Under the pieces are notes generated by a model that worked only from the letters and a program-made list of their open reading frames with translations, was not told where the DNA came from and searched no databases. Positions 53,543-64,000 of a DNA stretch of 64,000 nt are shown piece by piece. This DNA comes from Saccharopolyspora hordei. GTDB taxonomy: Bacteria; Actinomycetota; Actinomycetes; Mycobacteriales; Pseudonocardiaceae. Both the position numbers and the translations under genes were made by a program. Location of the stretch: positions 310,001 through 374,000 of the forward strand of contig NZ_JACCFJ010000001.1 of the NCBI RefSeq assembly GCF_013410345.1, written 5' to 3'. How positions within the stretch are numbered: position 1 is the stretch's first letter; the number at the start of each line of letters is the position of its first letter.

Positions 53543-54493
53543 GTGGTCGACGTGGACGACACCCGCTACACGATCGGCGAACTGGCCCGCCGCACGGGCC
53601 TGAGCGTGAAGACGATCCGGTTCTACTCCGACACCGGCGTGGTGCCGCCCACCGACCGCACCGCGGCCGGGTACCGCTTGTACGACGTCACGGCGGTCAG
53701 CCGCCTGGAACTGGTGCGCACGCTCCGGGAGCTGGGGGCCGGGCTGGACGAGGTCAAGCGGGTGCTGGCCCGCGAGATGACGCTCGCGCAGCTGGCCGGC
53801 ACCCACCTGGAGCTGCTGGAGCAGCAGATGCGCGTGCTGCGCACCCGGCGAGCCGTGCTGCGGGCGGTCGTGAAGGCCGACCGTTCGACCGAAGAGGTGA
53901 GACTGATGCAGGAACTGGCGACGATGTCCGACGAGGAGCGCAACCGGCTCATCGACGAGTTCTGGGACGAGGTCAGCGCGGACCTGGCGGTGACCCCGGG
54001 CTTCACCGAGTGGATGCGCTCGGCGAAGCCGAACCTGCCCGACGACCCGAGCACCGAGCAGCTGCAGGCCTGGATCGAGCTCGCCGAACTGGTGCAGGAC
54101 CAGGACTTCCGCCGCGCGGTGCGGGCGCTGTACGAGGAGCACGCGCGGCGCCGCGAGGCCGGTGAGCAGATGGTCGGCCCGGAGACCGCGCCGAAGTGGT
54201 GGGCGATCACCGACGAGGCGAAGAGCGCTGCCGAGTCGGGTCTGGCGCCGGACGGCCCCGAGGGCGCCGCCCTGGCGGACCGGGTGATGGCGCTGGCCGG
54301 CGAGGAGTGGGGGCGGCCGGACTCGCCGGAGTTCCGCCGCGAGATGGCCGACCACTACGCCGAGGGGACCGACGAGCGGATGTCCCGCTACTGGGAACTG
54401 CTGGCGATCATGAACGACTGGCCGCGGCACCCGGTCACCACCGAGTCGGCCCGCTGGCTCGCCGAAGCCCTCCGCGCCTCCACCCACTCGTGA
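53543..54493 (+). CDS. MerR-family transcriptional regulator with helical C-terminal domain
   Basis: A 316-residue regulator. The N-terminal winged HTH is YTIGELARRTGLSVKTIRFYSDTGVVPPTDRTAAGYRLYDVTAVSRLELVRTLRELG (in segments), followed by a coiled coil (LAGTHLELLEQQMRVLRTRRAVLRAVVKA). The long C-terminal region of about 190 residues (MSDEERNRLIDEFWDEV...YWELLAIMNDWPR) is helical and might bind a ligand, like TipA-type proteins, but no known pocket is recognised. It runs opposite to the surrounding operon. Its TGA lies inside the first repeat of a hairpin array. GTG 53543 and GTG 53552 are both possible starts. Confidence 0.85.
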   Translation: MVDVDDTRYTIGELARRTGLSVKTIRFYSDTGVVPPTDRTAAGYRLYDVTAVSRLELVRTLRELGAGLDEVKRVLAREMTLAQLAGTHLELLEQQMRVLRTRRAVLRAVVKADRSTEEVRLMQELATMSDEERNRLIDEFWDEVSADLAVTPGFTEWMRSAKPNLPDDPSTEQLQAWIELAELVQDQDFRRAVRALYEEHARRREAGEQMVGPETAPKWWAITDEAKSAAESGLAPDGPEGAALADRVMALAGEEWGRPDSPEFRREMADHYAEGTDERMSRYWELLAIMNDWPRHPVTTESARWLAEALRASTHS

Positions 54494-54807
54494 GCGCAGA
54501 AACCGCCCACAACCGGCTCCTCCACGCACGACCCCACTGAACGGCCCGGGGACCGGTCGTGAGTGCGAAAACCGGCTGGAACCGGCCTCCCCACTCACGA
54601 CCCCGGTGACCAGGTCAGGGACCGGTCGTGAGTGCAGAAACCGCCCAGAACCGGCATTCGCACTCACAACCACGCTGAGCGGGTCCGATCCGGTCGTGAG
54701 TGCAGAAACCGGCTGGAACCGGCCTCCCCACTCACGACTGCGGTGAGCGGGTCGGGGGTGGTCGTGAGTGCGGAGGCCGGTTGGGACCGGTTTTCGCGCT
54801 CACGACC
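54486..54807 (+). repeat. Tandem array of five 48-nt hairpin repeats
   Basis: Five units start at 54486, 54555, 54624, 54692 and 54760, a period of 69, 69, 68 and 68 bp. Each unit is about 48 nt: GGTCGTGAGTG ... CACTCACGACC arms (11 bp, perfect in unit 2, one change in units 3, 4 and 5, degenerate in unit 1) around a centre containing ACCGG copies. Spacers of 20-21 bp are similar but less conserved. The array fills the gap between the convergent merR and folK stops: unit 1 contains the merR TGA and folK ends 7 bp past unit 5. Units 1/3 and 2/4 resemble each other most. No ORF is convincing. Confidence 0.88.
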
Positions 54808-54813
54808 GCGGGG

Positions 54814-55308
54814 TCAGGTGAGGGTGAGGTCGGGGCGGAGGTGGACGTCGGCGATGTCGGCCGGGGGCAGGGCCTCCAGGAGGTCGGCCACCCGGCCGTG
54901 GCCGGGGAGCTCGGCGTCGGGGTCGATGGCCAGCCACGGGACGAGCACCGTCGCCCGGCTCGGCGTGCCCGGGTGCGGGAGCAGCAGCTCCGGGTCCTCG
55001 CTGCGGACGTCGTCCACGGTGACCACGTCGACGTCCAGGGTGCGCGGGCCCCAGCGCTGCTCGCGCACCCGCTCCGCCTGCTGCTCCAGCCGCTGCCCGC
55101 GGCGCAGCCAGCCCCACGCGTCCACGTCCGGGGACTCGACGACGATCACCGCGTTGAGGAAGTCCGGCTGGTCGGTGACGCCCCACGGTGCGGTCTCGTA
55201 CACCGGCGACGCCGCGACCAGCACGTCGGCGAACCCGGACACGGCGAGCCGGAGGTGGCCGAGCCGGTCCCCGAGGTTGGACCCCAGCGACAGCACCGCC
55301 CTGCTCAT
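54814..55308 (-). CDS. folK: 6-hydroxymethyl-dihydropterin pyrophosphokinase
   Basis: A 164-residue HPPK. The pattern VLSLGSNLGDRLGHLRLAV, VYETAPWGVTDQPDFLNAV, GPRTLDVDVVTVDD and LLPHPGTPSRATVLVPWLAI contains the family's pterin- and ATP-binding residues. It transfers pyrophosphate from ATP to 6-hydroxymethyl-dihydropterin before FolP. The ATG follows GAGGAGGCGAG. It is the last gene of folE-folP-folB-folK and runs into the hairpin array. Confidence 0.95.
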   Translation of the reverse strand: MSRAVLSLGSNLGDRLGHLRLAVSGFADVLVAASPVYETAPWGVTDQPDFLNAVIVVESPDVDAWGWLRRGQRLEQQAERVREQRWGPRTLDVDVVTVDDVRSEDPELLLPHPGTPSRATVLVPWLAIDPDAELPGHGRVADLLEALPPADIADVHLRPDLTLT

Positions 55309-62655: not shown

Positions 62656-64000
62656 TCAGCGGCAGCCGCAGCCGCGCAGGGCTTCGGTGACCGCGTCCAG
62701 CGCCTTGCGGCCCTCCTCCGCCGAGCTCGGGCCGTTCGACATCAGCGCGAACACCAGCAACCGGCCGTCCTTCGTCACGACCGTGCCCGCGAGGCTGTTG
62801 ACGCCGTCCAGGGTGCCGGTCTTGGCCCGGACCCAGCCGCGGCCCGCGTTGTCGTCGTAGCGGTCCTGCAGGCTGCCGGTCCCGCCGGCCACCGGCAGGC
62901 CGGTGAGCAGCCCGCGCAGCTTGGCCGCGTCCGGCTCCAGCCCGCCCTCCGGGCTGGCCGGGGTGGAGCCCTTGCTCAGCAGCTGGGCGAGCAGCTTCGG
63001 GGTGGCCCGGTCGTCCACGGACAACCCGCTGCCGTCGGACATGGTGGTCCCGGTGAGGTCGAAGCCGTGCTTGGCCAGCACGCCGCGGACCGCCTTCCAC
63101 GACCCCGCGAAGGACGGGTCCCCGCCGGTGGCGATGGCGACCTCGCGCGCGAGGACCTCGGCGAGCATGTTGTCCGAGTGCAGCATCGCGGTGTCCACCA
63201 TCTGCTGCACCGTCGGCCCCTGGACCTGGCCCAGCACCTGCGCGCCCGGCGGCGCGGTGCCCTTCGAGACGTGCGTGGCGCCGAGCCCGGCGGCGAGCCG
63301 CTGCGCGGCCTGCAGCGCCGGTTCGGTGGTCCGCGGGCTGTAGTCGACCTTCGGGTCGTTCCGGCCGCCGTTGAGCATGACCGGCTCCATCGGCGCCATC
63401 ATCCCGGCGCCGACGTCCGACGGCAGCCAGCCCGGCGCGAGGGTCGGCCCGGTGTACCGGCTGGTGTCGACCTGCACCGAGGTGACGGTCCCGCCGGTCG
63501 CGGCCCGCACCTGGGCGACCAGGTCGTCGAACCGGGCGGCCCCCGGGTACACCGACTCCTCGCCGGGCGGCAGCGTGGACAGCGTCACGTCGCCGCCACC
63601 GACCAGGACCACGCTGCCCGGCTCGCGACCGCGCACCACCTTGGTGGTCAGCCGGTGGTCGTGGTCGAGCACCAGCAGCGCGGCGCTCATCGCGAGCAGC
63701 TTGCCGGTCGAGGCCGGGACCAGCGGTTGCGTGGCGCCCTGCTCCCACAGCACCTCGCCGGTCCGCGGGTCCTGCACGATCCCGGCGAGGGTGCCCAGCG
63801 CGGGGTTGCTGAGCGGCCCGGCGAGGGCCGCGTCGAGCCCGGCCCGGGTGGGTTGCGGCGCGTTCGGGGCCAGCGGCTTGATCGCCGGGGTGAGCCGGAC
63901 GGGCGGCGGCGGGTCGGCGACCTGCGCCTGCACGATCGCGTCGACCAGCTTCGGCCCGAGGCCGATGCCCGCGCCGAGCAGCACCACGACCACCGCCGCG
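62656..64000 (-). CDS. dacB: D-alanyl-D-alanine carboxypeptidase/endopeptidase (PBP4, DacB type), 5' end outside window
   Basis: At least 445 residues are visible; the frame continues past the right edge, so the N-terminus (membrane anchor) is incomplete. Class C PBP motifs are SxxK in [12 protein letters not shown], SxN in [17 protein letters not shown] and KTG in [16 protein letters not shown]. It cleaves D-Ala-D-Ala and cross-links in peptidoglycan outside the membrane. The visible end has [20 protein letters not shown], the second half of a signal anchor. The gene is first of the zinc protease-tilS-hpt run. Confidence 0.92.

Follow-up and report, generated by a model that had tools for sequence, protein, structure and literature searches.

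The window, a 64,000-nt stretch of a Saccharopolyspora genome, raises the question of what the tandem array of self-complementary repeats between merR and folK is, and how it came to lie there. The MerR-family regulator gene (53543..54493, + strand, start uncertain; MerR_1, E 2.6e-19) and folK (54814..55308, − strand; HPPK, E 1.5e-31) are convergent, and the MerR_1, HPPK and FolB domains around the array were confirmed by Pfam. The five regular repeats described in the first-pass annotation are real, with start-to-start spacings of 69, 69, 68 and 68 nt, but the conserved unit is 46 nt long rather than 48 nt as given there. Each unit is a 46-nt palindrome with no assigned strand: unit 1 at 54487..54532, units 2 and 3 at 54556..54601 and 54625..54670 (both seen from repeat spacing and fold), unit 4 at 54693..54738 and unit 5 at 54761..54806. 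As also described there, the array starts at the merR stop, the TGA at 54491-54493 lying inside the left arm of unit 1 (CTCGTGAG), and unit 5 finishes at 54806, 7 nt short of the folK stop. Linker 1 (54533..54555) is 23 nt long, and linkers 2 to 4 (54602-54624, 54671-54692 and 54739-54760) resemble it and one another, as in an array that may have been duplicated locally. Units 2 and 4 are identical at 44 of 46 positions, in line with the proposed duplication of a two-unit block. However, units 1 and 3 share 36 of 46 positions, no more than units 1 and 4 (36/46) and fewer than units 3 and 4 (39/46), so the block duplication is borne out only in part.

Nine of ten 53-nt single-strand folds of the units were better than dinucleotide shuffles (z −3.6 to −10). 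Unit 1 on the + strand was no better than its shuffles (z −0.9), and unit 5, which has the best pairing, folded at −46.6 kcal/mol on the + strand. The Rfam scan of the whole window gave one tRNA at gathering score and no match at the array locus, where ten weaker matches each fell far under their own cut-offs. The intrinsic terminator scan gave 0 at the same locus.

We defined the core of the unit as CGTGAG-N30-CTCACG, which is 42 nt long (46 nt including the outer GT/AC). The search of this genome and its relatives for further copies revealed a dispersed family: the exact core is present in 126 copies in the window genome, with 0 for the reversed control, and in up to 514 copies in relatives. 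The arm GTCGTGAGTG occurs 183 times on the two strands of the 5.78-Mb genome and the reversed word 17 times, so the repeats are not chance. The hairpin pattern with up to 3 mismatches was found at 130 places and the fixed 46-nt form with up to 2 mismatches at 123, the own-genome control being 0 for both. Anatomy was studied in a 1.25-Mb sample of the genome, made up of 854 kb of contiguous sequence and 20 stretches picked for holding matches. It contained 73 fuzzy matches, of which 65 are units of exactly 46 nt and some of the other eight are overlaps or chance; six shuffled arm words gave 0, 15, 2, 0, 1 and 0 matches. The stretch G000:C1:1-854000 includes 1692 N bases in joined stretches. Further tandem arrays elsewhere in the genome have periods of 91, 92, 61 and 102, and arrays of the family therefore look like local amplifications.

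Across the 65 copies there is hardly any change in the outer arms or in the CCG/CGG blocks, apart from looser conservation of the outermost base and of the ninth base counted from either end; variation falls at positions 11-16 and at the two central bases. The palindrome is nearly identical in both reading directions, and the sequence covered was parts of the first 2.26 Mb, so replichore polarity was discarded as a line of evidence. Of the 525 arms that have a partner at the loci scanned, 476 lie in units whose length is exactly 46 nt. An uptake-sequence-like use of single arms is not favoured, as exact arms were paired by eye in the first 854 kb; against strict pairing, 117 of 642 arms (up to 1 mismatch) at the loci scanned had no partner within 3 mismatches.

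Family copies thus have a fixed length and fixed outer arms, with inner halves that are variable and often mosaic. The first-pass annotation had taken wobble pairs between differing arms as a sign of maintained structure. A pair read as G-T on one strand becomes an A-C mismatch when the opposite strand is read, and inner-arm Watson-Crick pairing in the 65 copies is 7.18 of 12, compared with a mean of 7.79 in 5000 reshufflings of halves, none of which was lower; asymmetric-consensus copies lying in both orientations could alone produce this low value. Because the inner arms pair worse than reshuffled halves, wobble there is no sign of compensation. By half reshuffling, with groups of fewer than 5 copies excluded, no inner-arm compensation was seen in the window genome, A. 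anabasis, A. orientalis, S. hirsuta or Pseudonocardia, and pairing was better than reshuffled in A. rubida (value reached by 4 of 5000 shuffles), A. circi (1), A. dendrobii (58) and A. xylanica (55). Positions 11-16 of 154 A. xylanica halves are occupied by 33 different hexamers. The two halves are equal in 18 of 77 elements (expected 6.6, maximum 15 in 2000 shuffles) and unlike at 3 or more of the 6 positions in 43 of 77. Halves are either equal or quite different, as if they had been re-assorted. Half elements fused at the centre to other sequence were noticed at five A. xylanica loci (L120, L139, L145, L186 and L191), several of them joined to TTGAGGGG..TGGCGTG, and short palindromes such as GTGAGGGCCTCCCTCAC and ATGAAGGGAGCCTTCAT stand next to half elements.

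The family is centred on Pseudonocardiaceae. In this GTDB family the hairpin pattern with up to 3 mismatches was found in 73 of 297 genomes and 22 of 46 genera. The reversed control was likewise present once or twice in a few genomes, so single matches there may be chance. Across the order, the fixed 46-nt form was present in 28 of 79 genomes of Pseudonocardiaceae and, outside it, in 6 of 318 genomes with 1-4 matches each, one of which resembles chance. Across the class, core matches in 123 of 394 genomes were nearly all 1-3 in number, about control level; a clear excess was seen in the window genome (126) and G436 (22), and G681 had 7 vs 1 in the control. Of 80 Amycolatopsis genomes 67 were positive, with 1 to 514 copies and a control of 0 in 80/80. 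Named hosts among the matches listed are Amycolatopsis, Saccharopolyspora, Kibdelosporangium, Pseudonocardia spinosispora and Rhodococcus rhodnii. Viral contigs gave 0 matches to the exact-arm pattern and phage records 0 matches to one own unit as query, and plasmids gave no convincing copy, the same kind of query yielding 1 match of 23 nt with E 1.

Gene orientations around the copies were called with a home-made, crude gene caller (coding fraction 0.82 and 0.86). The 65 own copies comprise 34 between convergent genes, 29 between tandem genes, 2 between divergent genes and 0 inside genes. With clusters counted once, 15 are convergent, 22 tandem and 2 divergent, where intergenic length predicts 6.8, 19.4 and 12.8 (convergent excess, p 0.002; tandem, p 0.43; divergent deficit, p 5e-5). 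The exact-pattern scan gave at least 120 named loci, and 54 of the 120 listed are from A. xylanica. The 153 copies at the named loci listed are 80 convergent, 54 tandem, 6 divergent, 1 inside a gene and 12 at a locus edge, and their 124 placed sites are 71 convergent, 48 tandem and 5 divergent, with 21.3, 68.9 and 33.8 expected from intergenic length (p 1e-23 for convergent enrichment, 2e-11 for divergent depletion). The nearest stop codon is a median of 3 nt away at the named loci listed (within 20 nt in 101/134) and 61 nt away in the window genome (within 20 nt in 23/63). A TGA inside the arm serves as the stop of 49 of 214 element-facing flanking genes at the named loci listed and of 3 of 97 flanking genes in the own set. 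Elements that persist only where they disrupt neither gene nor promoter would be expected to show this distribution. In the broad sense the family belongs with REP-like dispersed palindromes, having many extragenic copies and few between divergent genes.

Presence or absence at orthologous positions was followed in Amycolatopsis, with eight ingroup genomes at 90% identity or more and the outgroups G630 and G621 for site 1. Site 1 is filled in five of the eight (A. dendrobii, A. rubida, A. circi, G663 and G640) and empty in three (G637, G223 and G628), where a lone 8-nt arm, CTCGTGAG, stands at a junction 38 nt shorter. The flanks of the ingroup are 92-95% identical to A. dendrobii. Both outgroups lack the element, G630 being without the 8-mer and G621 having CTCACGAG nearby. 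Site 2 is filled in A. rubida, A. circi, G663 and G640 and empty in the other four of the eight ingroup genomes: A. dendrobii, G223 and G628 read TCGTGAG, and G637 reads TCCTGAG. The element is absent from both outgroups there as well; G630 ends in TCCTGAA, and in G621 a different hairpin comes after GCCTGAC. At site 2 all ten genomes share one stop codon position, so the TGA is native. At both sites, the junction of the empty alleles is shorter by 38 nt and the TGA of their lone arm is the stop of a gene. Between filled alleles compared at one site there are 0-3 differences in the outer 20 nt and 7-12 in the inner 26 (A. circi at site 1 and G640 at site 2 excluded).

A tree of the flanks joined G637, A. 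dendrobii and A. rubida (0.983) and A. circi with G663 (0.996), the other ingroup nodes being weak (0.64-0.86). On this tree, with its several weak nodes, site 1 takes 3 gains, or 1 gain and 3 losses. The target repeat at empty and filled sites is at most the 3 nt GAG, which is equally a slippage repeat, and deletion between 3-nt repeats in the arms (GAG..GAG or CTC..CTC) leaves the same 8-nt arm, so the direction of gain or loss is not proven. Other places are less simple. At a third site (L118, the same as A. dendrobii 80191) 2 of six genomes are filled vs 4 others, in which both gene ends are replaced and no clean insertion is seen. Stretches from four genomes showed that the filled A. dendrobii places 1913, 80191 and 87223 are not clean insertions; 38588 coincides with a rewritten end of the neighbouring gene, and at 62988 the corresponding A. 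rubida sequence is CTCACGAG.

At the merR-folK gap itself, none of 21 congeners has an array within 420 nt on the 3′ side of folK (302 nt in G091). There, 19 of the 21 are without a match to the family, G248 has one unit, and G262 has one variant with TCGTGCGTG arms. In five congeners (G197, G256, G248, G275 and G280, read by eye) merR has a stop of its own, placed one residue earlier; the merR stop codon of the window genome therefore seems to come from unit 1. The gap of G256, G275, G280 and G248 holds other large hairpins of different sequence (by eye), and in the outgroup G621 a long hairpin unrelated to the family stands at the corresponding gene end of site 2 (locus L406); gene ends therefore look like general hairpin sites. 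The G256 hairpin (CCGTGAGCACTTTC..) resembles a sister hairpin family of Saccharopolyspora relatives (L398, L394 and L391), noticed also at G000:3018401, with the form CGTGAGC-N-CTTT..AAAG-N-GCTCACG and a core that among the matches listed is also nearly always 42 nt. This sister family has 40 copies in G256 and 19 in G197, and 11 of 22 genomes were positive (control 0 in 22/22).

The REP superfamilies are the nearest known class. In the sections consulted, they are described as GTAG-tagged, with RAYT, or CGTC-tagged, with no transposase (PMC3733652, PMC2817692). The REP/BIME/REPIN elements of the GTAG superfamily are likewise short extragenic palindromes, present in more than 100 copies, apparently mobile and hit by ISs, as one unit here is by an rve-like IS. 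The present family differs in its greater length (46 nt) and in a fixed outer arm inside the stem, and it has no unpaired GTAG tag at the hairpin foot, the flanks of the 65 copies showing only G-rich and C-rich neighbours. It also lacks a Y1 transposase gene: RAYT (Y1_Tnp, PF01797) was found in 0 of 1 own genome and 0 of 80 Amycolatopsis by a search that was positive in 5 of 14 control genomes. REPs are described, in part of one source, as targets of ISs (PMC1525189). At L086:9632-10990 an apparent rve-type IS (390-aa ORF, family by inspection) interrupts one unit of an array and is flanked on either side by the repeat CCGGTTCCAGCCGGT. The gene between arrays at G000:2005510-2007103, considered as an autonomous partner, was rejected, since it appears by eye to be an IS inserted in a unit. 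CGTC-tagged REPs are also dispersed palindromes without a known dedicated transposase, but in the sections consulted of PMC3733652 they have stems of 8-9 bp, a loop of 4-5 nt and mostly a CCA tail, where the present elements have two long arms and a fixed 46 nt. Their hosts are given there as Proteobacteria and four other phyla, and Amycolatopsis, Saccharopolyspora, actinomycet, Actinobacteria and Pseudonocard each have 0 occurrences in that paper.

MITEs share with this family inverted ends, dispersal and presence or absence at orthologous loci. Unlike MITEs, the present elements show no direct repeat of the target at their flanks other than a possible 3-nt GAG, and the empty site already has one of the arms. 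The TRIT hairpins of Mycobacterium, reportedly described by Gardner et al. in 2011, are said to be repeated conserved hairpins after genes. By that description they are alike in being such hairpins in an actinobacterium, but the present 46-nt form matches 6 of 318 genomes of the order outside Pseudonocardiaceae, at 1-4 matches. The TRIT model is cited and used in sections of PMC3526491. Parts of PMC5379054 and PMC3610266 contain no mention of this palindrome family. Among the matches listed from one open library no paper described it, which is no proof of absence, and among those listed for the arm word no title concerned bacterial repeats.

Among the four readings offered in the first-pass annotation, a family of mobile hairpins fits best, given 126 core copies in the window genome, up to 514 in relatives, and presence or absence at single orthologous positions. 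The family has a high copy number, a fixed length, a position after stop codons, an enrichment between convergent genes, orthologues with and without the element, and differing inner sequence at the same position. We consider it probable that a member of a dispersed REP-like family was amplified locally to give the array, the elements of this family being gained at TGA-stop contexts that supply one arm, and tolerated or useful as two-way 3′-end hairpins. New copies would derive from those already present and arise at gene ends that already resemble TCGTGAG, where the target gives one arm and an added 38 nt complete the palindrome. The mover would act in trans, as an enzyme or as copying by template switch; the search, which covered Y1 transposases, found no gene for it. 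Once in place, the hairpin may cap both convergent transcripts by blocking read-through or 3′ exonucleases, and such a cap might make it harmless or useful there, a weaker suggestion drawn from position and fold. Losses by slippage between the 3-nt arm repeats, leaving the same 8-mer, probably also occur. Tentatively, and with the chances somewhat against it, the element may be stop-codon-seeking and palindrome-completing, a 38-nt piece inserted repeatedly just after a native TCG-TGA-G gene end that serves as one arm, with halves re-assorted at the centre, and moved by a putative new enzyme or copying process.

The copies might instead be vertically inherited 3′-end hairpins, bidirectional terminators or mRNA-stabilising caps, selected and immobile, with the empty alleles as slippage losses. 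Their place after stops and between convergent genes, their strong folds (median −27.9 kcal/mol own, −31.7 related) and the unlike large hairpins in the merR-folK gap (G256, G275, G280 and G248, by eye) and at G621 site 2 agree with this, and the 8-nt remnants fit slippage between 3-nt repeats. We nevertheless hold it to be rather unlikely: a single genus spans 0 to 514 copies, a terminator would require no constant outer arm and no set length of 46 nt, and close relatives carry unlike inner sequences at the same nucleotide site. The multi-hairpin terminator of the first-pass annotation is a possible reading of the array, but the U-tract is mostly absent, so most copies are not canonical intrinsic terminators; at least 5 T in 10 occurred in 0 of 97 own sense-strand tails and in 8 of 214 related ones among the matches listed, those eight being as a terminator would have it. 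Nor is there a sense-strand bias of G-U pairs (sense:antisense 47:36 and 32:31 in tandem contexts), which speaks against the 3′-end hairpin explanation and leaves strand-specific RNA selection, and with it the suggested strand-specific structured RNA, unsupported.

Operators for a conserved nucleoid or regulatory protein, bound as a dimer on CGTGAG half-sites 36 nt apart, would account for fixed spacing, strictly kept half-sites and free inner sequence, the neighbouring MerR being the candidate binder in the window. This is improbable, because only 5 of the 124 placed sites at the named loci listed lie between divergent genes, where operators are expected, presence varies among close species, and 19 of 21 congeners are without a match in the merR-folK gap. 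A binding array specific to MerR, as first suggested, is unlikely since copies are spread across the genome and no congener has an array after folK. A structured RNA or a regulatory element confined to the merR-folK locus is a very improbable reading of the array: its units do fold strongly, but no Rfam match reached gathering score, the ten weaker ones being far below cut-offs, the locus has no array in 21 congeners, and the genome-wide copies refute a locus-specific reading.

Under the preferred reading of a mobile REP-like family, palindromes of this kind at identical stop codons with differing inner sequences suggest an unrecognised kind of tiny spreading DNA. Dispersed palindromes that are free of RAYT pose the question of what moves them. 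Its abundance in genera that produce antibiotics, its polymorphism among closely related species and the occurrence of unlike inner sequences at one and the same nucleotide make gain, loss and mover of the present family directly testable. The family could explain the origin of many gene-end hairpins of high-GC actinomycetes, and why they lack U-tracts.
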